A stretch of DNA of 64,000 nt. Source: Polytrichum commune (lineage: Eukaryota > Streptophyta > Polytrichopsida > Polytrichales > Polytrichaceae). Numbering within the stretch: position 1 is the first letter of the stretch; each line of letters opens with the position of its first letter. Shown here one piece after another: positions 5,498-55,719 of this stretch. Location of the stretch: positions 20,336,001-20,400,000 of the forward strand of contig OX485806.1 in NCBI GenBank assembly GCA_950295325.1, given 5' to 3'. The position numbers and the translations under genes were made by a program. The notes below the pieces were generated by a model. That model was given only the letters and a program-made list of their open reading frames with translations. It did no database searches and had not been told where the DNA came from.

Positions 5498-5955
5498 TGT
5501 AAGGCCCCCTTAGAGCGAGCCCTCCATTGGGCGGAGGAACACCTAAGGGGGTTGGGTGTGCGATTAGTATCGCACCCCTTAGAGTGTAAGGGTTGAACCC
5601 GGTTGGGAAAGTACTCTAAGGCGGGCGGACTTAGAGTATGGTAGGGTGACCCGTGTGGGGTGCACGAAGGACTTAGGCAACGCGGCTTAACGGGTGAGGA
5701 CGTAGGACTCGGAGCACACGCTCCGCGTGTGGGAAAGGCCTGAACCTTGGGGCCTTGGGAAGGAACCAGGGTTGTCTGTGGGAAGGAACCAGGGTTGTCC
5801 GTGGGTTGACTAGTGAGGTCTCCACGAGTGTTAGAACTTTAGGAGTCTAAGGTTGCTAGTTGATACTAGCGGGACTCACCTAACAAGTGGCTTGTGCAGG
5901 TGAGTTGTTAGCTTCACGCGAGGCGGGAGGGATGTGGCGCTAGAGCGGCGTTACA
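5498..5955 (+). repeat. 5' LTR of the chromovirus
   Basis: A TG...CA-bounded 458-bp repeat, nearly identical to 28158-28615. It contains a tandem pair of about 24 bp (core GGAAGGAACCAGGGTTGTC) at about 5757-5804. A 17-bp hairpin at 5715-5731 lies in the opposite orientation from its counterpart in the 3' LTR. Confidence 0.95.
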
Positions 5956-7211: not shown

Positions 7212-7622
7212 TTGAACTTGGAGCCGATCACCACGGAGCACCAAGTGGAGCAAGAAGTGGTGGATCAAGCCGCAAAGGTGGCGGAGCAACCTAACGTACC
7301 GCTTGACGCAAGCGAGGAGGTTGACTTGGAGGTATCCGAGAAGGATTCGGATCGGGAGGGACCCCGACACCGCGAGACGGCGGTGGTGCGACTCAAGACC
7401 GAGTTTCGCGAAATGCAAGCCACCATCGCGTCTTTCGTGCAACAAAATCAAATGTTGATGGAGTTGGCACAAGCGGAGTTAGCTAAGGGCTTGTCCTCGG
7501 ATGGGTCCAAGCCAACTTACATGAAGAATGTTCCTAAGCCTCCTAATTGGGATACAAAGGATCGTAAGAACATCGAGGCATTTCTTACCGAGTACGAGAC
7601 GTACTGCGACGCCTCAGGTTAC
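7212..7622 (+). CDS. Gag, N-terminal region (fossil fragment)
   Basis: An acidic, coiled-coil-like start is followed by the typical plant Ty3 gag entry (PKPPNWDTKDRKNIEAF at about 7535-7585). This precedes the capsid-like domain, which lies on the far side of the MULE. In the family this protein forms the virus-like particle. The reading frame is cut by the MULE insertion at 7632. Fossil; not a functional gene. Confidence 0.8.
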
Positions 7623-7631
7623 ATTGGCGAC
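7623..7631. repeat. Target-site duplication of the MULE, left copy
   Basis: ATTGGCGAC is repeated at 23008-23016. Nine base pairs is the commonest MULE duplication. The identical stretch actually runs 14 bp (7622-7635 and 23007-23020), so the exact boundary is uncertain by a few bases. The 9-bp choice gives the best-matching TIRs. Confidence 0.8.
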
Positions 7632-7735
7632 GAGGGAAGCTATCTTATGAGCGACGAGTAGTGAGCGGTGAGCGGTGAGCAGTAACACATGAGCAATGAG
7701 TAGTAACATATGAGCAATGAATCCAAATTTAGTAA
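7632..7735. repeat. Left TIR and subterminal repeats of the MULE
   Basis: The outer 20 bases match the right end with two or three changes and one indel. Inward from it is a series of short direct units (GTGAGCG, GTGAGCA, ATGAGCAATGAG) at about 7661-7720. Subterminal repeats of this kind are transposase-binding sites in other DNA transposons. That role is inferred here. Confidence 0.75.
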
Positions 7736-7915
7736 AGACACACGGGTTTAGGGTACACAACCAAATTTTTGACAAATTAATTGCATATTTTCAATTGTAA
7801 ATTGCCAATATTTTAAATGAAGCACAAGTCAAAGGGCCCTATTTCCATGGATCATTTAAAACACTTTCAATCCATTGCTGGTGTTTATTATAATAATCCA
7901 AACCAATACATGTCA

Positions 7916-7921
7916 TTTATT
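7916..7921 (-). terminator. Poly(A) signal after the distal last exon of the transposase
   Basis: AATAAA on the minus strand, about 40 bases past the stop codon at 7962. The equivalent signal follows the proximal last exon at 9909-9914, so both ends carry their own signal. Confidence 0.55.
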
Positions 7922-7961
7922 GACATCCTTATACATGTAGTTACAACTAACACTTGCACAA

Positions 7962-8081
7962 CTACTCACATTTCACAACATCAGCAAGTTCAAGTAGGTG
8001 CATAACCTCATTATACGTATATGTAGGTGCCATAATTGTGAGCCACTCAAATCGCTCACGGGTTGAGTTAAGGCCCAGAAT
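7962..8081 (-). CDS. Duplicated, apparently alternative last exon of the MULE transposase
   Basis: On the minus strand this encodes 39 residues ending APTYTYNEVMHLLELADVVK-CE and a stop. It closely parallels the C-terminus of the main transposase (APTYTYNEVMRLLELAGIVE-CE) at 9955-10020. It is preceded by a good 3' splice site (pyrimidine-rich, TTTTGTAG at 8089-8082). A phase-0 donor AAG|GTGGAT exists inside the main second exon at 10056-10051. Splicing 10053-8082 (1972 bp) would replace the last 33 residues of the main form with this exon, giving about 1178 residues. The surrounding 190 bp (about 7845-8035 against 9842-10028) is a direct duplication. It may be a usable alternative exon or the remains of a related copy. 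Transcripts would decide. Confidence 0.55.
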   Translation of the reverse strand: MLGLNSTRERFEWLTIMAPTYTYNEVMHLLELADVVKCE

Positions 8082-8149
8082 CTACAAAAGAAAGGAAATT
8101 AGATATTAGAAATAGTCAATATGTAGGTAACTACTAGGTTTTGAGACAT

Positions 8150-8340
8150 CCGCCTGTGGATGCGAGTTGTGTAAGAGACTGGTATTAGGTCTGGATCAAC
8201 CCGGGTTCGAATCCGGTTGGTTACATTGACTGGTGCTATCCCAAATTGAGCTAGTGATAAAGCAGGAATAATCTATAGGCGGATACCAAGAAGACGTTAC
8301 TACGCGGATGTGCGTAGAATCTTCTCAATTTTATTTTATT
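8150..8340 (+). mobile_element. Possible tRNA-derived SINE
   Basis: A perfect RNA polymerase III B-box (GGTTCGAATCC, 8204-8214) lies about 40 bases after a poor A-box-like stretch (about 8160-8172). A non-tRNA body follows and ends in a T-rich tail (TTTATTTTATTTTTA, about 8331-8345). That layout fits a plant SINE head and tail. No second copy is in the window and target duplications were not found. A degenerate tRNA pseudogene is the alternative. Confidence 0.35.
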
Positions 8341-9841
8341 TTTAGAAACTTATTATTATTTATCCGTGTGAATCAATCAAACCTGTGAGCTAGGATCACC
8401 CCCACCCTTAACTGCGTCGTAATCCAGGTGGGGGATCACCATTTCACAGTTTGGAACATGCCCACCTCCAATGGTGGTTCTTTCCACCTCTAGGTGACCC
8501 TTAATAATGAATAACCGTTTACTTTATTACTAATACTCATGCGTGTCATAACACGAACGTGAGAATCAACACATTAAGTCACACATTAAGTCACACATTA
8601 GCTTTTCACCTAAATTCCTAGCTTAACTATCACCCTTCACTACTTCACTAATATTACTGCCTTAGCTTAACTCGGTTAATCCAGCTTAGTTCTCAGTTGA
8701 CCGTTGTCCTTTCATGCCCTTGGGCCTAATCACAACCAGCTCCTAGCCTCTTAGACCAACCCCGTTACCGGCCCTGTTACCGGCCATGTTACCAGCCGTG
8801 GCTAGGATGATCCCTTGCACCCTTCCTACCACACGTGGCTCTCGCCTATCTGGTCTGAGCACCCTTCCCATGCGTTCACAACTGTTGAGACCCCAGCCAC
8901 AGCTCTCGGCCATGCAGCCATCAATTCGCATTTGTTCACACTACGACCCCCTCGCATTTGTGCAACCTCCTCTCTGTGCTGATTAACCATTTAAATGAGG
9001 CTTGTGGCCTGGGCTCTTCCCCGCTCAATTTTGATCATTCTTCACATTAGTCATGTTGTAGTGCACTCCGAACCATTTGTTTCGAACAATGTTGGTCGCA
9101 ACCTGTGGAATTCACCTTCTCCTTTCCAGCTCGCCCCTGCCTTGTGGCATTGTGCCAAGTTCTTTTTGGAAGGCCGAGGCCTCCAGGCATTCGAATTCAA
9201 ACAATCCCTATCCCAGCTGCGCCCTCGGCAACCTCTATCATTTGCTCCAGCTTAGCCTCCAGCCTCCTTCCCTTCTTTGGCACAACACTTCCTCCTCATT
9301 CTCGGCGGCACCCACCTAGCTACCTACTAACTCCTCCAGCATCCATTACCAGCCTCGCATTCGGTAGCGCCTTACTCCTCAGCGGTATCGTCCCCCTCCC
9401 CCTGCTAGCTTGCTTGTTCGAGAGAGAGCTGAGTTGTGAGAGCGGCGGCCTCAATCGCGCCCGTCCGAGTCCTTGGATCCGCACTTTACTAGGGTGCAGT
9501 GGCACCTGCCTAATTCGAACAGTTCCCAAGCCTTTTCAAGTCACATAAACCCCAGGCTTACAAGGCCTAAGGTCTAAGCCTAAGAACCACCTTAATCACC
9601 TCCTAGTCAATTCCCTTACACCTGCTCTCATTATTCAAGCACTAAGTACTAACCTCCTATCCCTAACCTTAATTCTAACACAACTCCAATCCTCCACACT
9701 TTTTATGTTTTAATTAATTGATGAAAACTCCAAATCTGAGTTTTAATGTGTTTTTCAGGTTGAGAACACATGTGGCCACAGAGTTTGGGCTCACAAAACT
9801 GCTCACGGTTGGGTGGTAGTCTAAATAGAAATGAAGTTACT
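8341..9841. other. Non-coding filler of the MULE left arm, GC-rich in the middle
   Basis: This lies between the two copies of the transposase 3' end and would be intron in the distal-exon transcript. About 8700-9545 is GC-rich and looks unlike its AT-rich surroundings, with overlapping frames of 60-150 codons on both strands but no recognisable domain. It could be captured host sequence, as MULEs often pick up. I see no gene that I can support. Confidence 0.4.
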
Positions 9842-9908
9842 GAATCATTTGAAATACTTTCAATCCATTGCTAATTTTTATTATAATAATCCAAACCAAA
9901 ACATGTCA

Positions 9909-9914
9909 TTTATT
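9909..9914 (-). terminator. Poly(A) signal after the main transposase stop
   Basis: AATAAA on the minus strand about 40 bases downstream of the stop at 9955. Confidence 0.55.
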
Positions 9915-9954
9915 GACATTCAAATATATGTTGCTTAATACAACACTTGCAATA

Positions 9955-12900
9955 CTACTCACATTCTACAATACCAGCAAGTTCAAGTAGTCGCATGACC
10001 TCATTATAGGTATATGTAGGTGCATGAATGAACTTGTCACTCTCGTAATCCACCTTGCACAAAAATCTAAGCACATAATAAAGATGTTTACAATACACCC
10101 ATTTTCCTTTCTTTTCCAATGCATGAGAGGACATTTTCGTGAAGTCCGGGCATGTGCAATGCGGGATGTCACCAATTGTGACACGGTATGTAATATCCTC
10201 TTTGGAGACAATGTTGATTATCACTCCAAAACCTGGATATGGAATGGCAGTCACCCCAACTACAAAGTAACCATCCATGAGTCCGGCGCTCTCCCATTTT
10301 TTTTTGTGATCCGTTGTCGGTGCGGTCGGATTGCAACGAACTGTCTTTCCAAACCTGAATGTAGGGTGGGCGTCCGGGTTGGGTGGCATACGAAAATGCG
10401 AGCGAGGGATGGGAAAGGTTGCAATTGTAGAAAGCCTACGACGGGGGGATAATGCTTCCCTTTGCTGTAGTTGAAATCCAGCGTCCTCAAGCGCCAACAC
10501 CTCTTCTCTTGATAGATTGGTGCCTATCTTCACCGGCCAAGTGTTAGGCACTATCGGCCAATCCAACACATATTTCTTCTTACTACCACTCACACAACGC
10601 TTGATGTCGTCAGGGCAGAAGCAAAATTCATACTCCACATTGTTGGGAGAGCGAAATTCCTTCTTGAACCCTTTGTATGTTGGAGCAGGTGTGCCATATT
10701 TTCCAGTACCGACTTTGGCATTGCACATCGTTCCTGTAATGGCCTGTAATGCCCAACATCGTCTAGCTGAGTTGGGTGGCAATCTTGCAATGTGCCAATT
10801 AGAAGCAAGACAATCAGTCTCTAACACGGATGTAGTATGAGTCACACCATGTTGTGCAGAATTCAACGATTCCTCTATACGTTGACGAGTTGCACGAGTG
10901 TTAGGGCGAGGAATTGAAAAATTCACTTTGTCGGGTCGATGAGAATCGCAATCAGCACCCGGGGGCATGTTGAGTTTTCGTTTGGTGGACCCAAATAGCT
11001 CGGACCCTTCCAATGCACAATCTCTAGTGTTGACGTCTTCTGCCCCCGGGAAAGACTTCATGGCATCAGCCAAAATTTTTGGATCTCCACACCTGGCAGC
11101 CGCCTTAAGTTTCAAGGACGCCGAATCAAGACCTTTACCATGAGACCCCCCTTTCAACCATGCACGGTAATTCGCGATTTGCATGAAGGCACGGATCATG
11201 TCATCAACAGTAGCTTCATACAGGCAAGTCATCTTGTTGCCGGATTGTTGGAGCCATTTGTTATGAACAGTCTCGGCAAGGTTGCATGTTGGCATTTCTG
11301 CACGCTCATCTATTGTCATATCCTACGAACAACATACAAATATGGGGTTAAGAAAAAACAAGACACAAATTTATAAAAATGGAAAAAATACGAGAAAGTT
11401 CAATGACATTGAATAATGCAGTGTGGTATGCACTTACAAGTAGCATATGACCACCCCATTGTCTATAACGGAAGTGCCAAAATCCCAACAACTCCGAAAG
11501 GCCAAGGATGCCTTCTTCTGTGGCAGCTCCAGATGACAACCACCAAGAACGAATCACGTGATACTTAGTCTCGGCATCGTCCATTGTTACCGCGTCCTTG
11601 TAATCCTTGCATATTTGCTTGTGTTGAAACTGCAAGGATGGTTTGATATATTTTTGTGTCACCTTATCCAAGCTTGCAGACCAGTGGAAAAGGCATGTGC
11701 GTTCACGTGCGACCATAGGCAGGCTTGGATCGCCGTCCCCATAAACCATCCGCACCGCATTCCAATTGGCTTGAGCACTGTCTGCCATGAACCCTTTGAA
11801 GTTTGTTTTTGGAACACCATTCTCGGCCATAACAGCATTCAGATTTTCCCAAAAGAGAGTTTGTGCTGCACCATCTTCAGATTGCATGTCACAACACGCA
11901 ATGGTCAACACCTTACAGTATCGACTGTCGTACACATGGCAAGCCATTGTCGTCCAATCCTTCAAACGTTTGACATGGTCAAACATGATCCAAGAATTCT
12001 CCATATCTCCCCCAACTTGCATCCTCTTTACAAGCTCCACACCACTGCCCGAAAGGTCTACGGACATCTTGAAAACAAAAACCTTGTCTTTCGATTGCCC
12101 TGGGAACCGACTATCATGGACGAACTTGAAAGCAGAATGGTCTTTGAGTGCCATAATACTATCCATAGTTCCCATTCCACTACGCACAAAACGTTTTGAT
12201 CCAGATACAAAATTACGACAATTTGGGGAGGTTAAAGTGCTGAATTTGTCCATGACCACCTCTAAGGAAGAACCAACCAAGTGATGGCTTTCTCCAATTG
12301 TGGGAGATCTAAGAAGGTAATCGGCCAATAATTGTTTGCTCGCGGCCATAACTATGGCGGAATTTGTGGCTGTGGGTGTTTTCAACACTTCATTGGCAAC
12401 GCACTGGTATGCCATATCCAATGATTCACGACATGTACCATTGGATACAAGGTGATCATGTACACCAAGATGAATGCAAGCTCTGGACATCCCAGCAGAG
12501 GCGGAATGAATGTATATAATGCGAGCAGGGCACAAAGCAATGCACACAGGTGTTGAACGACATACCTTACACTGGATAGTAGACCTAGTAGGGGCAACAT
12601 TATCCACAAGAAATGGCAGAGGGGTTGAACCGGCCCATTCAGTGTTGTTGCGCAGACCCCCATTGCGATGCATGTAATCACAGTAGTCATTAAGACATTG
12701 GAGATGATCTGCACAAGTAGAACGCCGAAAGGATAATCCAAAATCATTTTGGATATTCGTGGTTTTGGTGGTGCACCAAGGGTGACCGTCGCACATTTTA
12801 TCCATACCATCCATGGAGCGGCCATACGTATTTGGAACTCCAAGTGCCACAGGGGGCAAGATAAATAAAACGTCGCCGTCAAAAGAAGATGGCAAGTATT

Positions 12901-13585
12901 TGACATCACGGACATCTATATTGTCAAAATCAATGAATGCAAGATCTGACTTTGACCTTTTCCTAGACTTTGTGAACTTCAAGGCATCAACGATAGTCAA
13001 CCCTGTAGATGATGGTGAAGGGTGCAATGGAGGGCGCTGAGAAGGTGTCATACGGTGAACCAATGTGTTGCACATAGGACTGAATGGGGATTTGGGAAGT
13101 TGTGAAGGAGTGGAATTTTTACTTTTGAATGGAAATGACGATATGTCTGAAAGATCAACAGCAGCACAAATATCATATTCTGAATCAGACAGCACCAATA
13201 CACTATCATCATTGGGCTCCAACTTAACAGTTGCAACAGTGGGCATTTGAACTGTGGATGTACCGGATTCATTGGTCAATAAGACAGTTGGAGCTTGCAT
13301 CTGCGATTCAGAAAGACCTATGACCCTGAATGAACCAGGCCCTAAAATCCACACAAATCCATCTTCAGTTCTAGTCTTTTGAACCAAAATCGTTTCATAC
13401 ACCTCTCCATCCGCAGAGTACATCTCTTGTTCTAAATACATGCTTCTTAGTTGGAGATTGAATCTCAAACTAAGCAAATCTTCCGAGACACACACAAAAC
13501 CATCATCCTGAAGTGGTAGCAGGAAAGGAACAAAGGATCCGGGAGCTCTAATGGTAGCCATGGAGAAAGAAAGCAATAGATGCAT
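9955..13585 (-). CDS. Mutator-like (MULE) transposase, two exons, about 1171 aa
   Basis: The enzyme that would cut and re-insert the element at its TIRs. Exon 1 is 13585-11438 and exon 2 is 11322-9955. The 115-bp intron has the donor CTT|GTAAGT and acceptor TTCGTAG|GA, both phase 0, and both exons are open. Residues about 335-385 form a Cys/His zinc-binding region (CKVCRSTPVC, then SRACIHLGVHDH). The DDE core spans about 520-690, with the first Asp near 537 (WIMFDHVK), the second near 601 (FMADSAQANW) and the CxxH motif CLFHW near 630. The third acidic residue I cannot place with certainty. A SWIM zinc finger (PHCTCPDF then YCKHLYYVL) is at about 1100-1130, as in other MULE transposases. No internal stop or shift is seen, so this copy may be functional. 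It reads away from the cargo genes. An alternative last exon lies at 7962-8081. Confidence 0.85.
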
Positions 13586-14739
13586 GTCACAATAATATTG
13601 GATGGACGGAGATTATTATACTGAATGGTATGTACTAAAAAATGGGGTGTCGATCAAAACTTTGAATACTATAGCATCCAATAATACACAAGTAGACAAC
13701 TCACACTGACAGTTAAAGAATAGATTAGGCCAAACATAAAACCCTAAACCAAACCCAATAAACTATCTCATTTGGAAACAAAACCATAGCGAACCATAGT
13801 GAGATGTGGATCTTAAATTCATGACACCATAAGTCATGTCCATTATAACATTGGGAAGAATATATGAAGAAGAGATTTAACTAATGTATATAACTTAATA
13901 AAAATATAAATTATTTAGAATATAGATCTATATATATTTATATATCTATGTTTATATCTATATGTTTATATGTTTATATGTTTATATGTCTACATCTATA
14001 TATCTATATGTCTATATGTCTATATTTATATGTCTATATATCTATATTTATATCTATATGTCTATATTTATATCTATATGTCTATATATGTATATATGTA
14101 TATATGTATGAATTCCTAAATGAAAACGGAAGAAACGCGGCCACGGACATCATTGAAAAACGTGTTATATAATGAACAAATACATATAAATCAATACTAA
14201 CAATTTGGCGAATAATTTCACTTTTTATATGATGTTGGGGAAGTGAAGGATTTAAACCCTATAACCTTCTTAGAATGTTCCCCAATCATGTGCAAAAAAA
14301 TGATTTCGGAAAATTTCCAAAATGTACCGTATAGGAAGATTTCCCAAAAATCTACGATGTCATCAATTTCAGAGTTTTTAGAAATTCATAAGAATTTGAA
14401 ATTTAATGAAAAAAATCTAATTTTTTGTATATTACTACATATGATGGGTGTAACTATGAGGAAAAAATTTCAAGCTAATTAATTTTAATATGTAGGAGAT
14501 ATACCTATCTAAAGTTTTCTAAAATCTATGGGTTTTGTATTTTTATTTTTTTCCCCCCCAACCTTTCATTCCCTTCTGAACCTAAACCTAAACCTAAACC
14601 ACTTCGCGTTCACGGCCGCCATGGCCGAGGCGTATAAATAATGATGAAAAGGTGTTTCTACAACAAACTTACATGAGCGACCTTCTGTTTAGCACTGCGT
14701 ATGAGAGCAAGTTTGTAGAGAAGTTGCTGGTTGGACCTG
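13586..14739. promoter_or_regulatory. Transposase upstream region with AT-rich simple repeat
   Basis: This divergent intergenic stretch should hold the transposase promoter. Positions 13924-14110 are a long tract of TATATCTA/TATGTTTATA-type units, low in complexity and likely easy to unwind. At 14577-14602 three AACCTAA units form a telo-box-like motif. No defined TATA or start site can be assigned from sequence alone. Confidence 0.45.
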
Positions 14740-15608
14740 CTTGTGCGCTAGTGCACAAACTTGCATTAGGACTATTTCTGTTCATTTTTTCTTTCAATGC
14801 TAGCACTTACATAAGATTTGTTTAGCCCTGCTGCTGAGAGTTGTTTGTGCGCTAGAGCACAAACATCATAGAATTCTTTGTGTTTACTTTGTTCTTTAGA
14901 TCTATCATTTGCATACGATTTGTTGCGCCCTTCTGCTGGAAGTTCTTTGTGCGCTAGCGCACAAACATCCTTTAGGACTCTTTTTGTTTAGGGTGTTCTT
15001 TAGATCTATCATTTACATACAATTTATTGCGTCATTTTGCTGGAAGTTCTTTGTGCACTAGCGCACAAACATCCTTTAGGACTCTTTTTGTTTAGGGTGT
15101 TCTTTAGATCTATCATTTGCATACAATTTATTGCGTCATTTTGCTGGAAGTTCTTTGTGCACTAGCGCACAAACATCCTTTAGGACTCTTTTTGTTTAGG
15201 GTGTTCTTTAGATATATCATTTGCATACAATTTGTTGCGCCCTTCTACAGGAAGTTCTTTGTGCGCTGGCGCACAAACATCCTTTAGGACTCTTTTTGTT
15301 TTCTGTGTTCTTTAGATCTATCATTTGCATACGATTTGTTGCGCCCCTCTACTAGAAGTTCTTTGTGCGCAGGCGCACAATCCTTTCTTAGTACTTCTAT
15401 TCATTTTTCTGTTTTAGTTCTTACATTTAGTTTAAGCTTCATTTCATTTTCTCTGGTTTACACTTCATCTGCCTTGCTGTTGGATTCTGCTTGTGCGCTG
15501 GCGCACATTAATCAGGTATTTTTCCATTGATTTTTTGTTTACTTCTATCAATGGTTTTAAGCTTGTTATGTCCTGATCTTGCTTTCTGGTTGTGCGCTGG
15601 TGACTAGT
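14740..15608. repeat. Array of 20-bp palindromes with 104-bp period
   Basis: Eight full palindromes of the form TTTGTGCGCTAGCGCACAAA and one partial copy start at 14740, 14844, 14946, 15050, 15154, 15258, 15362, 15490 and 15589 (partial). The spacings are 104, 102, 104, 104, 104, 104, 128 and 99. The central four (14946-15361) sit in near-identical repeat units, so they arose by tandem duplication. The outer copies have diverged between palindromes while the palindromes stayed. That pattern suggests selection on the palindrome itself and on the spacing, about ten turns of B-DNA. The array lies just upstream of the kinase and methyltransferase genes, between the two divergent halves of the MULE. 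A protein-bound operator, partition-like or assembly site is inferred. The element's own ParB-fold protein is one candidate binder. Confidence 0.9.
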
Positions 15609-16364
15609 TCGATTTATATATTATGGTTTATCTACTAATATTTGCTTGAATCTTGTTCTTAAATTTTTTTAGAACATTTTACAACTTCTGTTTTGCTTTG
15701 TTATTTATAATTGGATTTTTTTTAATTGATGTTCTGAACTTCATGTGTAGCACTACACCTCCGATCTGGTTGTGTACCAAGTACAAAGGCATCAACTTTC
15801 AATCCAGGTATTTTTTCACTCTATTATGTTTTGTTTTGCTTTTATTTGTTTTGTTTTGCCTTGTTCTATTTTATTTTGCTTTGTTTTGTTTTGTTTTGTT
15901 TTGTTTTTCTTCTAAATTCCGAATCATCTCAGCTGGCGTGGATGGATGTTTTATGCTTCCTCACGTCCTAGGTGTTAGGACGTGTAATTACATCACACTC
16001 ATCATTTCCAGCTGGTATGGTCCACATGATTATAATTTTCATGTGCATATCCTGGATTTGATTTTTAACATTCAACTTCAAATGGCCCTAGCAGACGTGA
16101 ATGGATGTTTCATGCATTCTCACGTCCTAGGTGTTCATATATGTATTTCTATAATATATTTTCCTTCTATCCGTGTACCAATCCATTTTTTAACTGACTT
16201 TTAAGATGTGTATCTAAATCCTATATTTCATTTCTTCAGCGTTAAGCATACAACCCATACTATATGGTAATTTCATGTGGTTTTATTGACTCTTATATGC
16301 AGGTGTTCATTGTTCGTTGATGCTATCTTCAACATACTATTCAAGGTGATTATTACTTACAACT
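15609..16364 (+). promoter_or_regulatory. Probable spliced 5' leader of the cargo genes
   Basis: There is no long open frame of interest. Several short AG...GT-bounded blocks look like leader exons: about 15751-15808 (CTTTCAATCCAG|GTATTT at its end) and about 16304-16345 (TATATGCAG before it, TTCAAG|GTGATT after). A TTTTG-rich simple tract fills 15826-15908. Leader introns are common upstream of plant transposon genes. This is a splice-signal reading, not proof of transcription. Confidence 0.35.
15936..16135 (+). repeat. Pair of 41-bp direct repeats with a hairpin
   Basis: About 41 bp at 15936-15976 recurs at 16094-16135 (shared core CTCACGTCCTAGGTGTT). At 15962-15984 the first copy extends into a 9-bp stem, CACGTCCTA/TAGGACGTG, with a 5-base loop. 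It lies in the presumed leader of the cargo genes. The function is unknown. Confidence 0.7.
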
Positions 16365-17861
16365 ATGGAACCTCTTCTCAATAAGCCTAATCAAATGGTT
16401 ACTTTGAGTGTGCAAAGCTTCCTTGTAGAATGGTGGGGTGATATGTCTTGGGATTCAATCCATCAAAATTTTGTATCGATGGGTATGTCCGGCCCTATCC
16501 TTTTGCGTGAGCGTGTGAAGATCATGATTGATGATTACATCTCGAGACGTTTTCCATCTTGCAAAGAAATGTCTAATTATAATACTTGGAAAGACAACGT
16601 CTCTTCTAATTTTATTGGACAAATGCCCGATGTGATTTCAAAGGTGCATCGGAAAGTCACACATGGTTGGACATTGGACAAGTTAGAAGCGCAAAAATTT
16701 AATTCCGATCGGTGGCGAGTGGAGATTCCACAACTTTCAAGACGTAGAAAAATTCATGTCAAAAATTTGAACCGTGTTGATCGACACGTCATTCCTGGAG
16801 GTGGTGCTTTTCTTTTTGTTTGGAGAGATGTTGTTATTGAGAAGCATGAACGACTAGGCCGTGGTTCATATGGAGTGGTGTGGAAATGTTTCATTAAGGA
16901 CAATTCAGATACTGATCCATTCGTACCCTATGCCATTAAATTTTTCTTGGATCATAATGGAAATCCTCATCATGCAAGCATGAAGGAGTTCTATTCTGTG
17001 GCTTCCATAGATCATGGTGGTGTTATCAAACCGTTTGCTTTCCAAACGACACCCGCACCCGCCATCTTCTTGCCTTATTGGAATGGTGGGACATTGGGAG
17101 ATATATTCAAAAGTGTGAAAGACCATGGAACTAATAAGTATGATGTTTTTCAACGTCTCACAATATTCAAGAAAAATCATCCAGAACAAATATCTAAAAT
17201 TTAAGAATTGGAGCGGTTAAGGCTTTTCTTGTTAAACCGTTGTACCCTTGCGATCACCTTCATTCAAATCATGGCCGATGTACTTACCATTCACAATGTA
17301 TTTCATTGTGATTTATCCTTTACAAACATCTTATTCCATTTTGGTGAGATGGATGATAAAGATGAAATTTACATAGGCATTGGTGATTGGAGATCGGCAA
17401 CAATATCGTCAGATAGACGACATTCAAATCATTTCTTGCAGTCTGAATCTTTGAGACATTCTAGGCTCCAAGAACGTTGGTGGGTAGATCCTGAGTTGTT
17501 CTTTACCAAAGACCACAATGCTCGTCCGTGCCATACCGAAAAGACAGAGTCATATTCTGTATCGAAGATTGCAGAGGCTATTTGGGGTTTATATGTCGAT
17601 CCAATATATCTCAAAGTCATTTACTCTCGTTTTTATAATATTTTGTTACATTGTATTCGTCGAATGTCATGCACTTCAACCACGGAGCTTCGCATGACCC
17701 CTACTGATGTCATGAATCGATTGTCTCGCGAACCAGATTTTCATACTTTTCCCTTCAACAAACACATCCGTCAACGTTATCTTACTCTACCAGAACGGAA
17801 TAGGGTTCATAGTCGTCAAATTGATTGTGATGATGAAATCCCTTTCAAACGTCGGAAATAA
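16365..17861 (+). CDS. Protein-kinase-like protein (499 codons, one in-frame stop)
   Basis: The frame has a kinase fold in its second half. A glycine-rich loop GRGSYGVV is at residues 163-170, the ATP lysine in YAIKFF near 190, a hinge-like PYWNGGTL near 235, the catalytic loop HCDLSFTNIL near 313 (Asp and Asn kept, Arg replaced by Cys), GDW in place of DFG near 339, and DPE in place of APE near 373. The first 150 residues are not recognised. All core catalytic residues are present, so phosphotransfer is possible in principle. A single TAA at 17202-17204 interrupts the frame between the two lobes. No intron with GT-AG ends would remove it, and homology of tone continues straight after it, so it is probably a recent nonsense change in this copy. 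The nearest relatives are unclear; it is not a standard receptor-like kinase. It is followed after 135 bp by the ParB-methyltransferase gene on the same strand. Confidence 0.75.
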
Positions 17862-17879
17862 ATTATATATTTTTATATT

Positions 17880-17885
17880 AATAAA
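17880..17885 (+). terminator. Poly(A) signal of the kinase-like gene
   Basis: AATAAA 19 bases past the stop, in an AT-rich trailer. A second AATAAA overlaps the stop at 17857-17862. It implies that the kinase transcript can end before the next gene begins at 17997. Confidence 0.5.
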
Positions 17886-17996
17886 GTATTGGATTTGTAA
17901 AATCCCTTATGTATTATTTTGAAGTATATATACGATGAAGTTATTTCTATCATTTTTTGTTTGCATTTTCATTTATGTTTTTTGTTTGCAGAAAAT

Positions 17997-20900
17997 ATGT
18001 TTCCTAAAGGAAAACAAAAAGACCCATCCTCCAATGCGTTACAACCTCTCTCACCAAGAATACAAACTATCCATCAACAAGGCGTTAAATCAACAACTAG
18101 GAAAAGAAGACAAGGTGAAAACTCCACCCCTACGCGAAGGTCTCATCGCAACAAGGGACTTCAACCTGATGTTGTTCTTGAAACAGTGGAAGAAGATTAT
18201 GCATCTTCCATGCATTCGAACGATCAACCACAAATCCATTCTAAAGAAAATACAATAACATTGTCGCAAAGATTGGAGCCACTTTTGGGACAACATCAAA
18301 ATATTACTGAAGATGTTGCAACAAAAATTGTCAATAATATTGTGGATTTAGTTGCAGAACAAGTTATTGAGGAATCCACTTTAGAGAAATCGCATGAAGA
18401 AAATCAAGACAATCTGCAATATGATGATACACAAGACTCTCAAGAGAATCAACACTTTCAAGTGACACAAACTTCTCTAGAGAATCAACAATTTCAGGAT
18501 ACACAAACTTCTCCAGGAAATCAACACTTTCAAGAGACACCAGATTCTCAACATAATGAACAATTCCAAGAACAACATCTTTCTCTTGTGAATCAACGAT
18601 TACAGCATAGAAAGCATTCTTTAACATTGTCTCAAGGGACAATATCTACATCTCAATTTACTGGTGGACCTTCTGAAGGTGTAACTAATCGACGTAAAAA
18701 AGAGAAGGTAAATTTTATTTTCATTTGTATTAAACGGTTTGAATTTTTTAAATTTATATATATTCTCTATTATTATTAGGTTTATATTCTTACATACATG
18801 AATATTGTGCAGAGTGGAAAAAATGATATTCATGAAGGATTATGGACACCTCCGCCTACATTGGAGAACCCAGCTGAACATGAAGGGAAATCCATCAAGT
18901 ACACGAGAATGAGACTCTTGGAGCGAAAACAAAAAATCAACTCGACATTGAATGATATATGTGTCATGAAATATCCTGTGCCTATCCCTTTGTGTCGAAT
19001 GATTGGCATGGAGGTGGTTAGGCCCGCATTGGACGATGATGTATCAATTTTGTCACGTTCGTTTCTCAATGGTTATATTCCTGGGTCTGCATCATTTTAT
19101 GTCTCGGTAGAGCATGAAGAGGGATACACGATTGATGTCAATGATGATATTGTGAATGAATGGGATGAAATTTGGAAACAAAAAAATGAAGAATTTGAAG
19201 CGTATCTGACAGAGCATGGTTTGCATGCATTCAAAAATAAAATGTTTCACATTTGGGATGGAAATCATCGCTTTAAAGCGTGGTACAATACCAAAGAGAT
19301 GAAGTTGGGTGGTGTTGAATATCATATAAGCCCTACATCGATAATCCTTGATGGACGAAAAGAAAATCATTCTGTTATCACATGTCTCTGCGATGATATC
19401 AACATGTAAGTATTTTATTCATTTGTATTTTGATTATCTTATATTGTTAATTTTCTTTACATGTTTCATCTTTAATTTTTTCATATTTTTATATTATGTT
19501 TATATTTTGAAATGATTCAGATCAACAGAGAAAAATGTTGTCAAACCTCGATTCATTCACACACTCTTCAAAGTGACAAAATATGGAAGTCAACCACTGG
19601 AATGGTGGGAAGGAAGGATTAGTCCTGAGCAAATGGCTTTGTGCAAAAAGAGAAAATCAGTAAATTCCAAAAAGTGGTATAATGTCACACAAGAGATCCT
19701 GGTCGAACATATTTACAAGGTAAATTTTGTATTTCCTTATTTCTTTAACTATGTCAATTCATATTTATGGATTTCTAGATTTTCTTTCTTTATGCTCATC
19801 AATACTTTGTATTGTACAGAGTGAAATTGAGGACGAGGTTGCAAAAACAACTGAAAACTATATCAACTTGGAGGTTGCAGATCACATCGGATTGCAACAA
19901 ATAATTGCAACAGCGTCACAATCCATCAAAACTAAAAAACGGTCAACACTGGTTAAAATTTTGGCCATCGCTGATCCCGAAAATGGCACAGAGTTTTTTG
20001 ATGAAATCAAAAAACACTATGACAAAAATGGAGACAATGTGCAAATGACCCTTGATCGCCTCCATCGTCTTTGTCAATCTCAGGTTGGCTCCAAAGAGAA
20101 AACGAATTGGCTAAAGCTCTGGAATGCTAATGATGACACAAAACATGCTGCATCGTTTCCTTTAGAAATTGGAGGAAATGATGCATTGGATCCATGGCTG
20201 ACAAGAAGAACATTTTGGTGGCAGGTATTTATATATGAAGTTTACTATTTGATATGTAATATATTTATGTATCAGATATATAATATATATGTATGTTTGA
20301 TATATGTATTATGATACATAACTATTTGTATATTGTATATTAATTATTTTTATGTATGTTATACAGCTCAAAGAGGAGGCATACAAAAAAATTGACTACT
20401 ACATCAATCATGATGATGCAACACAACGATTGGTGTTGGACAATATGACTTCGGATGTTCCGGATGTTGTCTCATATATTAGAACATGGGAGGAAAAAAT
20501 TGGGAACATGGCCTTTTTAGTGGAAATACCCACTAAGGTGAATGCAAAGACTGTGTGGAGGAACAATATATGGAAAGATCAACCAGGTTCTGCTGCAATC
20601 ATGTGTCGTATAATTTATCGATACATTAAATTCATTTTGATTGCAAATGGAAAACTTCGAGGTCGTCCATCATGGTGGTCTTCTTGGACACTTGCAGAAG
20701 GAATGCTTTGGAATATTGAACAAAGAAAATGGCCATCTGCACATCGCGAAGGGGGATGTTGGTATTTGGACCTTCCCAACGGTTCTTTACCAGAAGAAGA
20801 AACACAATTGTTTGAAGATTGCAATGCAAGAGTTGAAGAACAAAGAAGTGTTGGTATTAATGTGGGTGAAATGCCAACATTTGAAACCGAACAACCATCG

Positions 20901-22369
20901 GAGTCCTCCAAACAACCATCGCAGTCTTCCAAACCACATATTCAATTGAGGAAAAAAAGAAAAATAATCAATACAGAAAATAACGAACAAGATATTGTCC
21001 CAAATCCAAAGCCACCAAGTGGTCGAGTGTCGTCAAGATCACAAATTGCAACTGTACCAAAACCGGGAAGAAATCTTGATTTTATTCCCAAGGTAGGCCT
21101 TGTTAAAGGTGATTGGTACGATTGTCATGTTTTTTATGAAAAACACAAAAAAAACATCTCCTGATTTCAAAAAATTGATGTCATGGATGAAAGATGTTTC
21201 TTTGGGAAAAGTAAACAACGTGAATGGAATTGTTACCAAAGCATGTGTGGACCTAATTATTGTTGATATTCCAGATGGGATGCCAATCCATGGTATTGAC
21301 GAAGGGCGTACTATTCCTTCGTGGATGCAATTGAAGACAGATGAATGGTGGGAGACATTGTTTGATTTTTTGGAATCAATACTTTCAGACAATGGTTGCA
21401 CGCTTATCATGTGCAATGCCAAGATGCCAAGACTGCAAGAAAAAATTGTGAGTTATGCACTAGGGACCAGAGATCGTCCAAAACATTTTTGTTTAAGGGA
21501 GCATGTCAAAACATTCACAATTGTGAATTGTTTACCACAAAATGCTCCTAACGGTATCCAAACTGCTCTTTCCAACATTCTTCTCTTGAAGAAACCATCT
21601 AGTTCATTTGCCCTCTCGGATGCTGCTAGCTACATAGATCCATTTGTGGACATCAAACAATTGGATGTTCTGTTCAATCAAATAACGAACACAAACATGT
21701 GTTTGAACCAATGTGGACAACCTTGGAGGGGAGCTAAAGAAAAAAACCCTTTGGTTATGCAACAACTCATTGAAGCATGTTCTCCATTACATGGTCGTAT
21801 ATTGGATTTGTCCGTGGGTACAGGTGCAAGTTTTCACGCTGCAAAAGAAAGTGAAAGACATATTTTTGGTTTTGAAGCAGACGAAGAAATACACATGGGG
21901 TTATTGGATGCTTTATTTCAGAGTTTGAATGTTGAAGCATCCAATGTATTTCAAACACCCTCAGAACCTTCCTCAAGTATTGGTCCAAATTTTGAGGATG
22001 TAGCTCCAAAGCAAGGGCGCAAATTTGTGGCCATCGATGTATCTGATTCTGAATAGTAAGTAAGTCTTCAAGCTAATTGCAAATTTCATACAATGAATTT
22101 GCATGTGTACATTTATTTTTCAATATATTACTTAAACTCATATTAATATTGTTTTTTTTTGCATGATTAGCATTGGATTGAAAGATTGGTTTGCAAAAGT
22201 ACCATCAACTCCAAATTTTGTACAAGACCTACCAATATATGCAAGGTCAATGGCACAACACATGGCACAACAACAAGAAGTTTCACTAGAGTCATCAAGC
22301 CAATCAACGGATCTTCATCCTAGACGATTAGTAGAAATGTTCATGGACATAGAGGCCCATGAAAAATGA
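17997..22369 (+). CDS. ParB/Srx-domain and DNA methyltransferase fusion, six exons, about 1265 aa
   Basis: Exons: 17997-18707, 18813-19405, 19521-19719, 19820-20224, 20367-22055, 22171-22369. All junctions are GT-AG with matching phase, and the last donor is GTAAGTAAGT. Residues about 150-210 carry five 12-residue Q/N-rich repeats. Residues about 300-425 look like a ParB/sulfiredoxin fold, with the signature DGNHRFKAW at 386-394. Residues about 905-1150 look like a beta-class (permuted) N6-adenine or N4-cytosine DNA methyltransferase: a motif IV-like DIPDG near 930, then a motif X-like region and the SAM-binding motif I, ILDLSVGTGASF, near 1114. DIPDG departs from the usual DPPY, so catalysis may be lost. 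The reading frame shifts once, at an A8 run (21147-21154) that has one A too many. The start is the ATG six bases after a 3' splice site (TTTGTTTGCAG, ending 17991). ParB plus methyltransferase is a phage/plasmid-type pairing, so horizontal origin is likely. Confidence 0.75.
18432..18611 (+). repeat. 36-bp coding minisatellite in the ParB-methyltransferase gene
   Basis: Five imperfect 36-bp units encode a 12-residue repeat of the form TS-xENQxFQxTQ, rich in Gln and Asn. This is probably a disordered linker between the basic N-terminus and the ParB-like domain. It keeps frame throughout, as expected for a once-translated sequence. Confidence 0.75.
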
Positions 22370-22961
22370 AATTTTACATATATATTATGAAGATGTATGT
22401 TGAGAGTTCTCCAATGCCAAGTTTTCAATTGGGTTGTAATAATTAAAATAATTATATATTTAATGTTTTGACTCTTCAATGTTTGTTGTTGTACATATAG
22501 TCTTCAAATTTCCACAAATATATATATATATATTCAATACCACGGTCATGAACATGCACCTGTAATTAGGTTTGGTTGTGATGAAATTCTTTGTGGTATA
22601 TTGTACAAGTTGCATATTATGCATCCACTATATTTGAGTGCACACATGAATGCACCCAAATCCATGAACCCATGCACCAATTCATTGTTAATTATTTTGC
22701 TACAATTGATGATATTATTGAACCACAAAATAAAACATGTGGATGCAATAATTTATCTATAGTTGAATTAAATATGTATTTATATATGATAAATATATAT
22801 ATGCCCATAGTCATGTGGGATTTTTTTTTTCTCATTGCTCACTTCTTACAATGTTGCTTATCATCCCCACACCTCTCCCTATTAAACCCTAAAATCAAAA
22901 ACTTTTATGCCAAAATTCTACGGTTATAGGATACTAGTGGCCCTATTACCAAATATTTCAC
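22370..22961. other. Right-arm 3' non-coding DNA of the MULE
   Basis: AT-rich trailer after the methyltransferase stop, with a short TA run at 22517-22532 and a CCCTAAA-like motif at 22884. No gene is seen. A 112-codon frame at 22591-22929 has no recognisable domain. Confidence 0.5.
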
Positions 22962-23007
22962 CTTCCTCACCGCTCATTGTTCACCGCTCACAAGATAGCA
23001 CTCCCCC
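22962..23007. repeat. Right TIR of the MULE
   Basis: Read inwards on the minus strand, it begins GGGGGAGTGCTATCTTGTGA and continues with GTGAGCGGTGAAC and ATGAGCGGTGAG units. It mirrors the left end, including the subterminal TGAGC repeats. Confidence 0.8.
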
Positions 23008-23016
23008 ATTGGCGAC
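23008..23016. repeat. Target-site duplication of the MULE, right copy
   Basis: ATTGGCGAC, identical to 7623-7631. Confidence 0.8.
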
Positions 23017-23700
23017 GAGGTAAGAGTGCGAAGCTTTGGGTCGTTTCTTAAAGAAGGAGCGGCGGTCTCCTTCGTCGCGTGGCGGAGTTCACGTGGCGAA
23101 ACCGTGGCTTGGGAGGAGTTAAAGGTTTGGGCGTTGGATGCGTGGCGCAAGCCGCACCAACACCTTCTCGACGTGACCTCGCTAGGCTCAATGCGGTGGA
23201 AAAACGACATGAATTTGTCGAGATATGCCAAGGAGTACAAATCAAAGTACTTGCAATATGATTGTGAAAAGAATCCTCAACTCGGCATGATGGGTGCCTT
23301 CTTGGCTAGCCTAGACGAATCGATACGGCAAAAGGTGTGGGAACGGGAGAACCTTCCCACTACAATGCTAGAGTTGCTTGACGTCGTGATAAGGCTAGGC
23401 GATGTGCGAGAGGTGGGGCGCGCCGAGACTCCGAACGCGAAGAAACCTCATGAAAGGTTTTCCGGGGGCAACAAGCCCAAGTTTCCGAAGCGGAAATGGG
23501 AGTCTAAAGAGGATCCCGAAGGATCTAGCGGCAAGCCAACTACGCCAAAGGCTTTCGTCAAGCGACCGAAGCGTGTTGACGCCAAGGACGCGACGAAGAA
23601 GGGCCCTTGCTTCAAGTGCGGCAAGGCGGGACACCTTGCGAGAGAGTGCCGCGAGGGCGGGTCCGGAAAGGTAGAGTTAAACTCTACCACGATCTCGCCA
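23017..23700 (+). CDS. Gag capsid-like region and zinc knuckle (fossil)
   Basis: A retrotransposon gag domain is readable (SFVAWRSSRGETVAWEELK, then the W.RENLPTTMLEL region). It is followed by a basic stretch and one CCHC zinc knuckle, CFKCGKAGHLAREC, at about 23608-23650. In the family these build the particle and bind RNA. Part of a broken element. Confidence 0.9.
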
Positions 23701-28157: not shown

Positions 28158-28615
28158 TGTAAGGCCCCCTTAGAGCGAGCCCTCCATTGGGCGGAGGAAC
28201 ACCTAAGGGGGTTGGGTGTGCGATTAGTATCGCACCCCTTAGAGTGTAAGGGTTGAACCCGGTTGGGAAAGTACTCTAAGGCGGGCGGACTTAGAGTATG
28301 GTAGGGTGACCCGTGCGGGGTGCACGAAGGACTTAGGCAACGCGGCTTAACGGGTGAGGACGTAGGACTCGGAGCACACGCGGAGCGTGTGGGAAAGGCC
28401 CGAACCTTGGGGCCTTGGGAAGGAACCAGGGTTGTCTGTGGGAAGGAACCAGGGTTGTCCGTGGGTTGACTAGTGAGGTCTCCACGAGTGTTAGAACTTT
28501 AGGAGTCTAAGGTTGCTAGTTGATACTAGCGGGACTCACCTAACAAGTGGCTTGTGCAGGTGAGTTGTTAGCTTCACGCGAGGCGTGAGGGACGTGGCGC
28601 TAGAGTGGCGTTACA
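28158..28615 (+). repeat. 3' LTR of the chromovirus
   Basis: Same 458-bp length and ends as the 5' LTR. About five substitutions and one inverted 17-bp hairpin (28375-28391) separate the two. Confidence 0.95.
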
Positions 28616-46031: not shown

Positions 46032-46463
46032 ATCAGGGACAACCGGCCGTTGGTTCCAGATGGACCGGTCGAGGTCGAGAAATCACCGGTTGAAGTTCAT
46101 CAAGACTGCAGGAAAATGGCCGATCGCGTTAGAGGAATCTATAGAAGAATATACCCCGGTTTAGTAAAGGAAAACCGGAGGACGCCAACATGTCACCGGT
46201 TCGCCTTGCAAACACATGGATCTCCACCGGTTATGCCCAAAAATCTCCCCGAGATTTTTGGGCATAGCCGGTCGAGATCCTCGTGATTCTAAATCAAACC
46301 GGTGACATGTCGACATCCTCCGGTTTTCCTTTACTAAACCGGGGTATATTCTTCCATAGATTCCTCTAACACGATCGGTCATTCTCCTGCAGTCTCGATG
46401 AACTCCAACCGGTGATTTCTCGACCTCGACCGGTCCATCTGGAACCAACGGCCGGTTGTCCCC
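46032..46463. repeat. Long foldback: 215-bp arms with a 3-base loop
   Basis: The arms 46032-46247 and 46251-46463 are inverted copies, roughly 88-90% identical by eye. They meet at GCCCAAAAATCTC-CCC-GAGATTTTTGGGC (46235-46263). Each arm read outwards encodes a similar frame (VPDGPVEVEKSPV ... PGLVKENRR), a result of the inversion. A single-arm relative occurs at 60185-60410. Transcribed from either strand it would form a near-perfect hairpin RNA that Dicer-like enzymes could cut. A foldback transposon is the alternative. Confidence 0.9.
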
Positions 46464-47059
46464 GACCATTGTCCCTGCTCACTGCATACATACATCCCAC
46501 CTTGTATGTAGTACTGGCCCAACACCCGCTTTTAAGTAAAGTAGGGAAACGGGCCCGCAGAAGAGGTCGGTCGAAGGGGCACGAAACAAGTCAAATACTA
46601 AGGTATATATATATACATACTTACGTATGTTGTGAACCTGGCCTGGTGCACTGGCTGGCTGGGCTGGGCTGGCTCCTGGATCGATCAGGCCAGGCCAGGG
46701 CCAGGGCCAGGCTTGCGTTCCGTTCCCTTCCGTTCCCTTGCCTTCCCAAAGCCCAGCTACCAGCCCCGGCCTGCCAATGAACAGTCCAGTCCTTGGGCTC
46801 ATGGGCCTCACATGTGTTTCTTGTACCACTAAGCTTAGTGGTACGTACATCACCCTCTCAAGCCCTCCTTCATCGTATGGGCTCCCCCACCCCCTGCACA
46901 GATATTGCGGAATAACACTCAGATCGGCTGACCACTTCTGCTCCCTCGGGTTCGTGGGGGGTGTGGTTTGTTTGGTGCGGGTTTCATGTTCCCCAACTTC
47001 ACCTGATTCCATTTACCACCCACATGAAATGACAAAGGAGGGGAAAAAAGAAAAGAAAA
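46464..47059. other. GC-rich segment with GGCTGG/CCAGGG simple repeats
   Basis: 46645-46740 contains runs of GGCTGGGCT, CCAGGGCCAGGG and CCGTTCCCTT. Frames of 100-177 codons on both strands follow from the GC content and show no domain. No gene supported. Confidence 0.5.
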
Positions 47060-54610: not shown

Positions 54611-54775
54611 GCCCTTCTCCGCCTCGGTAAGGTAGAAATACCATAACCCGTTAACCACCCTGTAGCCGTGCACTAGACCGCTGTCATAATGGTGAAGTGC
54701 CATTTCTAAAACGGATCATGGCTCGGCGGCAACTTCAACGCGTGTACACTTAATGTAGCCAATGGGAGTACACTT

Positions 54776-55719
54776 AATGTACTCACGAGGTAACCGATTT
54801 AGGCGATGTTCTGTATGGAAATGCGGATTACCGTGCTCGGTGTAGGGAGAATCCAATGAACGAGTAGGGGGGTTGGACAAACTTCCCACTTTGAAAAATT
54901 GTAGCATTTTTTTTCGTATAGGGCAGAAAAACACGAAACAACTTGCATTCTTCACGAATCCTTGTCGTCTGTGTTGGAAAATTGTGTCATGATTGTCAGA
55001 CCAGATGTTCAATGTGAATCACCTCACTTTCACGGGTTATGGTGTTTCTACCTTAGGTGTTGTGAACATTCACCCCTCTCTCTCCCTCTTAATGTACTCA
55101 CGAGGTAACCGATTTAGGCGATGTTCTGTATGGAAATGCGGATTACCGTGCTCGGTGTAGGGAGAATCCAATGAACGAGTAGGGGGGTTGGACAAACTTC
55201 CCACTTTGAAAAATCGTAGCATTTTTTTTCGTATAGGGTAGAAAAACACGAAACAACTTGCATTCTTCACGAATCCTTGTCGTCTGTGTTGGAAAATTGT
55301 GTCATGATTGTCAGACCAGATGTTCAATGTGAATCACCTCACTTTCACGGGTTATGGTGTTTCTACCTTAGGTGTTGTGAACATTCACCCCTCTCTCTCC
55401 CTCTTAATGTACTCACGAGGTAACCGATTTAGGCGATGTTTTGTATGGAAATGCGGATTACCGTGCTCGGTGTAGGGAGAATCCAATGAACGAGTAGGGG
55501 GGTTGGACAAACTTCCCACTTTGAAAAATTGCAGCATTTTTTTCGTATAGGGCAGAAAAACACGAAACAACTTGCATTCTTCACGAATCCTTGTCGTCTG
55601 TGTTGGAAAATTGTGTCATGATTGTCAGACCAGATGTTCAATGTGAATCACCTCATTTTCACGGGTTATGGTGTTTCTACCTTACGTGTTGTGAACATTC
55701 ACCCCTCTCTCTCTCTCTT
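54776..55719. repeat. 315-bp tandem repeat, three units
   Basis: The units start at 54776, 55091 and 55406 and differ by only a handful of bases. Each begins AATGTACTCACGAGG and ends in a CT-rich tract (CCCCTCTCTCTCCCTCTT). The minus strand is open for 70-98 codons in each unit with the same start (MNIWSDNHDTIFQHRRQGF). 315 is a multiple of three, but stops between the units prevent one long frame. Either a young local satellite or a triplicated exon of something unknown. Confidence 0.95.

Follow-up and report, generated by a model that had tools for sequence, protein, structure and literature searches.

A stretch of about 15.4 kb in the genome of Polytrichum commune (contig OX485806.1 of assembly GCA_950295325.1) forms a single insertion unit, which carries repeats at its ends and is flanked by a target duplication. 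On balance, this unit is probably a cut-and-paste DNA transposon of large size that was inserted recently, resembles a Mutator-like element (MULE) and carries accessory genes of its own. Besides a transposase-like gene on the minus strand, it holds an array of palindromes as well as a protein kinase gene and a gene for a ParB-like methyltransferase-fold protein (ParB-methyltransferase), both on the plus strand. Among the readings weighed, the one that treats this cargo as the element's own is preferred. All coordinates refer to the window, i.e. the whole stretch of 64,000 nucleotides that was analysed (positions 20,336,001 to 20,400,000 of the forward strand of the contig).

The insertion unit and its ends

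The unit (about 7634–23006) interrupts the gag frame of a Ty3/gypsy element. This host element is bounded by two long terminal repeats (LTRs) on the plus strand, the 5' LTR at 5498–5955 (458 bp, with the ends TGTAAG and GTTACA) and the 3' LTR at 28158–28615, and the same 5-bp sequence GGGAG occurs on both sides. The LTR pair differs by 4 transitions and 4 transversions (Kimura two-parameter distance 0.0177), and the host element is young. The unit is younger than the gypsy insertion, and the LTR divergence bounds its age.

Both ends of the unit carry terminal inverted repeats (TIRs), the left one at 7639–7672 (plus strand) and the right one at 22966–22999 (minus strand). They are identical at 28 of 34 positions, and their score is 38, while the best of 100 shuffles reached 26. 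An earlier note on this DNA, made from the letters alone, had proposed a single TIR pair enclosing a transposase and two further genes, and the TIR pair was confirmed. With 34 bp, the repeats are short; TIRs of 20–38 bp are listed for one group of MULEs in the available part of a published article (PMC6446971).

Just outside the TIRs, the sequence CATTGGCGACGAGG was found at 7622–7635 and again at 23007–23020. It is present just twice on the plus strand, once on each side of the unit, and comprises 14 bp at most. Since the unit ends in a run of G residues (C's before the right copy, G's after the left copy), the true length of the duplicated sequence could be 11 or 12 bp. When the flanks (135 and 180 bp) are joined, a single open gag frame runs through the insertion site.

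The transposase-like gene

The transposase-like gene lies on the minus strand and consists of two exons, exon 1 at 11438–13561 (708 amino acids (aa), open frame with splice sites) and exon 2 at 9955–11322 (455 aa). They are separated by a GT-AG intron and together encode 1163 aa without a stop. Exon 1 contains the candidate residues D528 and D594 with a spacing of 66, followed by C..H at residue 623, and the pattern D...A...AV..C..H was reached by 37 of 5000 shuffles. In exon 2, a SWIM-like CxC..CxH was found by pattern at residue 1097 (reached by 130 of 5000 shuffles; no Pfam match). These patterns were picked after the sequence had been seen, and the assignment of the gene product as MULE-like rests on such motifs. 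Pack-MULEs are non-autonomous and carry gene fragments and no transposase; the long transposase-like frame without a stop sets the unit apart from them.

A second, diverged copy of the end of the last transposase exon and its 3' region is situated at 7848–8030 (minus strand, 86% to 9841–10023). The two copies form a direct repeat, and the translation of the left one (24 residues, 79% alike) looks like a diverged last exon that could serve as an alternative. Also in the left part of the element is a stretch resembling a short interspersed nuclear element (8135–8345) with B-box matches at 8194 and 8205, for which neither a tRNA call nor a flanking repeat was obtained. Between the two transposase ends, a pyrimidine-rich region (8380–9760) lies in no recognised gene and may be a further insertion.

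The palindrome array

Eight palindromes of the sequence TTGTGCGCTAGCGCACAA (18 bp, 0–2 mismatches) are arranged in tandem units at 14741–15508, with spacings of 104, 102, 104, 104, 104, 104 and 128 bp. This array sits between the transposase gene and the kinase gene, and the midpoint of the element falls within it. A TATA-like TATAAATA was seen by eye upstream of it at 14633–14640, so that a possible promoter of the kinase gene would lie in front of the array. The layout is not symmetric about the array, as had been proposed earlier, since both cargo genes lie to the right of it.

The palindromes are better kept than the sequence around them. In the units at 14741 and 15363, which are the most diverged within the tandem array proper, 33 of 36 palindrome positions were kept, in comparison to 114 of 180 spacer positions (Fisher P 0.0007); the unit at 15491 was left out of this figure, since it was found by its palindrome and biases the count upward. 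When all seven units were compared to the reference, the palindrome reached 117 of 126 positions and the rest 472 of 620 (P 7e-6). The units are related by duplication, and both P values are guides only. Such better-kept palindromes are what a self-targeting protein would need.

The kinase and ParB-methyltransferase genes

The protein kinase gene (16365–17861, plus strand) has a coding region that looks single-exon and contains an in-frame stop at 17202–17204. With this stop masked as X, the Pfam profile Pkinase was matched with an E value of 4e-7 (30.1 bits, just under the cut-off of 31.7) and PK_Tyr_Ser-Thr with 26.1 bits (above the cut-off of 23.1). The kinase motifs GRGSYG (2 of 5000 shuffles) and HCDLSFTNI (21 of 5000 shuffles) are kept, and a kinase domain was thereby confirmed for the kinase-like gene of the earlier note. 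A search with the kinase piece yielded 7 relatives among 242 candidates, with identities of 57–87% in the alignments. Three of them (P0007, P0008 and P0009) read through where the window has the stop, and P0005, P0006 and P0010 were uninformative at this place.

The ParB-methyltransferase gene on the plus strand comprises six exons and encodes a product of about 1260 aa; every intron is of the GT-AG type, and there is one frameshift. Exon 1 (17997–18707) contains a 36-bp tandem repeat at 18404–18571, which codes for a Q-rich repeat, and exon 2 (18813–19405) the ParB-type motif DGNHRFKA at 19257–19280, which was reached by 3 of 5000 shuffles. Exon 3 (19521–19719), exon 4 (19820–20224) and exon 6 with the stop (22171–22369) are delimited by splice sites. 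Exon 5 (20367–22055) shows the frameshift at a run of A residues (21147–21154), and from about 21154 on it encodes the methylase part.

This C-terminal part was identified as an N6_N4 DNA methylase (PF01555, N6_N4_Mtase, E value 7.5e-7, 29.8 bits, cut-off 26.7). The motif DLSVGTG (9 of 5000 shuffles) is of the S-adenosylmethionine (SAM)-binding type and follows the place of the catalytic motif. A catalytic motif in front of the SAM motif is the order of beta-class methylases. For the middle part, the ParB-like identity rests on the single motif DGNHRFKA. The ParB-methyltransferase assignment of the earlier note is therefore borne out in its methylase half and rests on one motif, outside any profile match, in its ParB half.

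A search with the methylase exon gave 3 relatives among 445 candidates (48–73% identity in the alignments). All ten relatives, i.e. seven of the kinase and three of the methylase, are short pieces of 161–267 aa, and several appear by eye to have shifted frames. Several diverged relatives of both genes are as expected of repeat families. None of the contigs with a kinase relative agreed in length with one bearing a methylase relative, which speaks neither for nor against linkage of the two.

In comparisons with phage records, the methylase open reading frame (ORF) found none at 1e-5 and matched 30 records at E values up to 10. Among the 20 matches listed (E values 1–10), 15 were annotated as methyltransferase or methylase, mostly at the motif I part, which lends weak support. 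Weak methylase matches were also obtained for the methylase exon in PHROGs and NCBIfam (best E values 0.0017 and 0.012); a match of the ParB exon to a head protein in these searches (E value 0.03) was taken as chance. Among solved structures, nothing was found for the ParB part, and the best E value for the methylase was 0.17. Viral contigs gave no relative of the ParB exon, transposase exon 1, the kinase piece or the methylase exon, bacterial and archaeal genomes gave none of the methylase exon, and the Rfam search remained without a match.

Elsewhere in the window, a 315-bp unit is repeated three times in tandem outside the element (54773–55719, 98% alike), and a palindromic stretch of about 430 bp (46033–46465) matches its own reverse complement at 90%.

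Weighing of alternative explanations

Several results weigh against a MULE-like element with accessory genes of its own. As a local match, CATTGGCGACGAGG reached a score of 28, which equals the highest of 100 shuffles and does not exceed it. The case for the target duplication, as put forward earlier, rests on its place outside the TIRs and on the restored gag frame. With 11–14 bp, it is at or above the range of 8–11 bp given for MULEs in the available part of PMC6446971, where extra ORFs are also described for several MULEs. The transposase matched no transposase family in Pfam at E values up to 1, and the one beta-propeller match was regarded as chance. Of the leftward-reading MULE transposase that had been proposed, the two-exon gene on the minus strand and its motifs stand, but a Pfam match is not among its supports.

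The missing Pfam match to a MULE and the long target duplication would also fit an element of another superfamily, whose transposase would be MULE-like in a few motifs alone and whose accessory module would be the same as that of Sola1 and other algal elements. Also in favour of such an assignment, the transposon that carries a ParB-methyltransferase gene in Ectocarpus belongs to Sola1, according to the available part of that report. Against it, the spacing of the two D residues, the C..H after the second D and the SWIM-like C-terminal end fit a MULE, and Sola1 target duplications are 4 bp long. Assignment to another superfamily is very improbable.

On the side of the cargo, the ParB part gave no fitting match in Pfam at E values up to 1, and none of the records matched at E values up to 10 (three from phages and one from a plasmid) had a ParB annotation. 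The whole ParB-methyltransferase protein yielded nothing at E values up to 0.001 among 5443 candidates scored. At the place of the DPPY motif (motif IV), DIPD was read by eye, which lacks an aromatic residue and lies before the start of the Pfam match; in the relatives P0001 and P0003 this place reads NFPN and DILD, respectively. The DIPD weighs against the plain reading that the protein marks the element's DNA. Furthermore, the kinase relative P0004 ends at the exact residue of the window stop, either by a shared stop or by a contig edge. If the stop is shared, the kinase was broken before the insertion, and the copy moved without a working kinase. Finally, the GC content is 0.45–0.46 in the transposase exons and 0.37–0.40 in the cargo exons, with a break near 13–14 kb. 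The insertion unit and the restoration of the gag frame do not depend on the shuffle score of CATTGGCGACGAGG, the Pfam cut-offs of the kinase or the end of P0004.

Of the three genes, the two of the cargo are broken in this copy, which may have happened before or after the unit inserted. If half of the LTR divergence (about 0.009 per site) is applied to the roughly 8.8 kb of coding sequence, at most some 78 substitutions result, by our own arithmetic. A few per cent of substitutions make stops. Neutral decay since the gypsy insertion could account for one stop and one frameshift, and none of the three genes need have been broken at landing, unless P0004 shares the kinase stop. The earlier description of two nearly full cargo genes with introns needs correcting in that each cargo gene is broken once and the kinase gene seemingly has a single exon.

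The broken state of both cargo genes, the kinase stop that may be common to P0004 and the GC content differing from that of the transposase would be accounted for if two genes, one a kinase-like gene of the host and the other a methyltransferase gene of bacterium-like type, had been picked up as passengers, which travel along and do nothing for the element. We consider such a capture unlikely, since the cargo is nearly whole with GT-AG introns, whereas the cargo of Pack-MULEs consists of fragments (PMC13317346, available part). In addition, both genes have several diverged relatives, and the available part of the Ectocarpus paper reports a gene of the ParB-methyltransferase kind from a transposon of unrelated type.

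The GC shift, together with the second transposase-end copy at 7848–8030, allows a composite history, in which a separate element with the kinase and ParB-methyltransferase genes would lie inside a smaller MULE-like element. A direct match between 13934–14009 and 22448–22531 (score 39, shuffle maximum 37) also points in this direction, but it is AT-rich and of low complexity. Inverted repeats around the cargo (13560–14750 against 22370–23022) scored below the shuffles (31 in comparison to 36; in a narrower stretch 24 in comparison to 32), and no repeat pair, inverted or direct, between 7610–8100 and 13560–14750 exceeded them. A second TIR pair delimiting a nested insertion at 14200–22900, which the earlier note had named as one of two findings that would refute its proposal, was hence looked for and none was found above the shuffles, in a test that would miss any element lacking repeats at its ends. 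Two elements in one are retained as a rival explanation that appears rather doubtful.

Comparison with known systems and proposed function

A MULE-like element with accessory genes of its own has its closest counterpart in the 21.5-kb Sola1-1 element of Ectocarpus. The available part of the report describes a giant DNA transposon with an accessory gene on the strand opposite to the transposase, which contains ParB-like and N4C/N6A methylase parts. The protein of 1104 aa compares with about 1260 aa in P. commune. Here, likewise, an N4C/N6A methylase domain occurs within a DNA transposon, whose transposase is assigned by motifs. The two differ in their transposases, and neither a kinase nor a palindrome array is mentioned in that part of the report, where binding of the protein to its own transposon is stated merely as a possibility. 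The ParB-methyltransferase accessory gene is thus of a known kind and not new.

A second likeness concerns function and not kinship. According to the available part of PMC5735166, the VANC proteins of VANDAL MULEs, e.g. Hiun, counter silencing and bind to short motifs that recur in tandem in the non-coding DNA of their own elements. Extra genes in a MULE and tandem-arrayed short motifs in non-coding parts are shared with the element described here; unlike it, no ParB or methyltransferase part is described for VANC in that text, and the motif of VANC21 is a 9-mer in contrast to an 18-bp palindrome.

Extra coding sequence in MULE-like elements is also known from Pack-MULEs and from the Ulp1-bearing Kaonashi MULEs (PMC13317346, PMC6431247, available parts). 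Pack-MULEs depend on a transposase in trans and carry gene fragments, and none in the first report was larger than 7 kb (PMC6431247, available part), whereas a transposase gene and two nearly whole genes are combined here within 15.4 kb. The word kinase is absent from the available main text on the Kaonashi elements (PMC13317346). In a literature library with few subscription journals, no MULE with both a kinase and a ParB-methyltransferase was found, judged by titles and the beginnings of abstracts. As far as these searches reach, the MULE-like carrier, the adjoining kinase and the conserved palindrome array are new.

If the cargo serves the element, the transposase would make its cuts at the TIRs. 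The putative control region that separates the transposase gene from the kinase gene holds the palindrome array, to which the ParB-methyltransferase protein would bind. This protein could then alter the state of chromatin or methylation and thereby bring about expression or transposition of the element at the right time, a logic comparable to that of VANC in VANDAL elements. Targets tuned by the kinase might be the transposase, the ParB-methyltransferase protein or silencing factors of the host. The proposal that the cargo is part of the element's own biology is partly supported. The kept palindromes and the nearly whole genes are in keeping with it, and the DIPD motif weighs against a plain marking of DNA.

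Bacterial ParB recognises parS. In a more far-reaching and quite tentative extension, the element would be a self-addressing transposon, whose palindromes are recognised by the ParB-like methyltransferase-fold protein that it encodes itself. Together with a dedicated kinase, this protein would form a transferable module shared by unrelated superfamilies, which controls silencing by the host or the time at which transposition occurs.

The palindrome array offers a direct and cheap binding test of the idea that such a protein binds its own transposon. If the kinase and the ParB-methyltransferase travel as a module, DNA-binding and DNA-modifying proteins of bacterial type would have been adopted more than once by transposons of distant eukaryotes.

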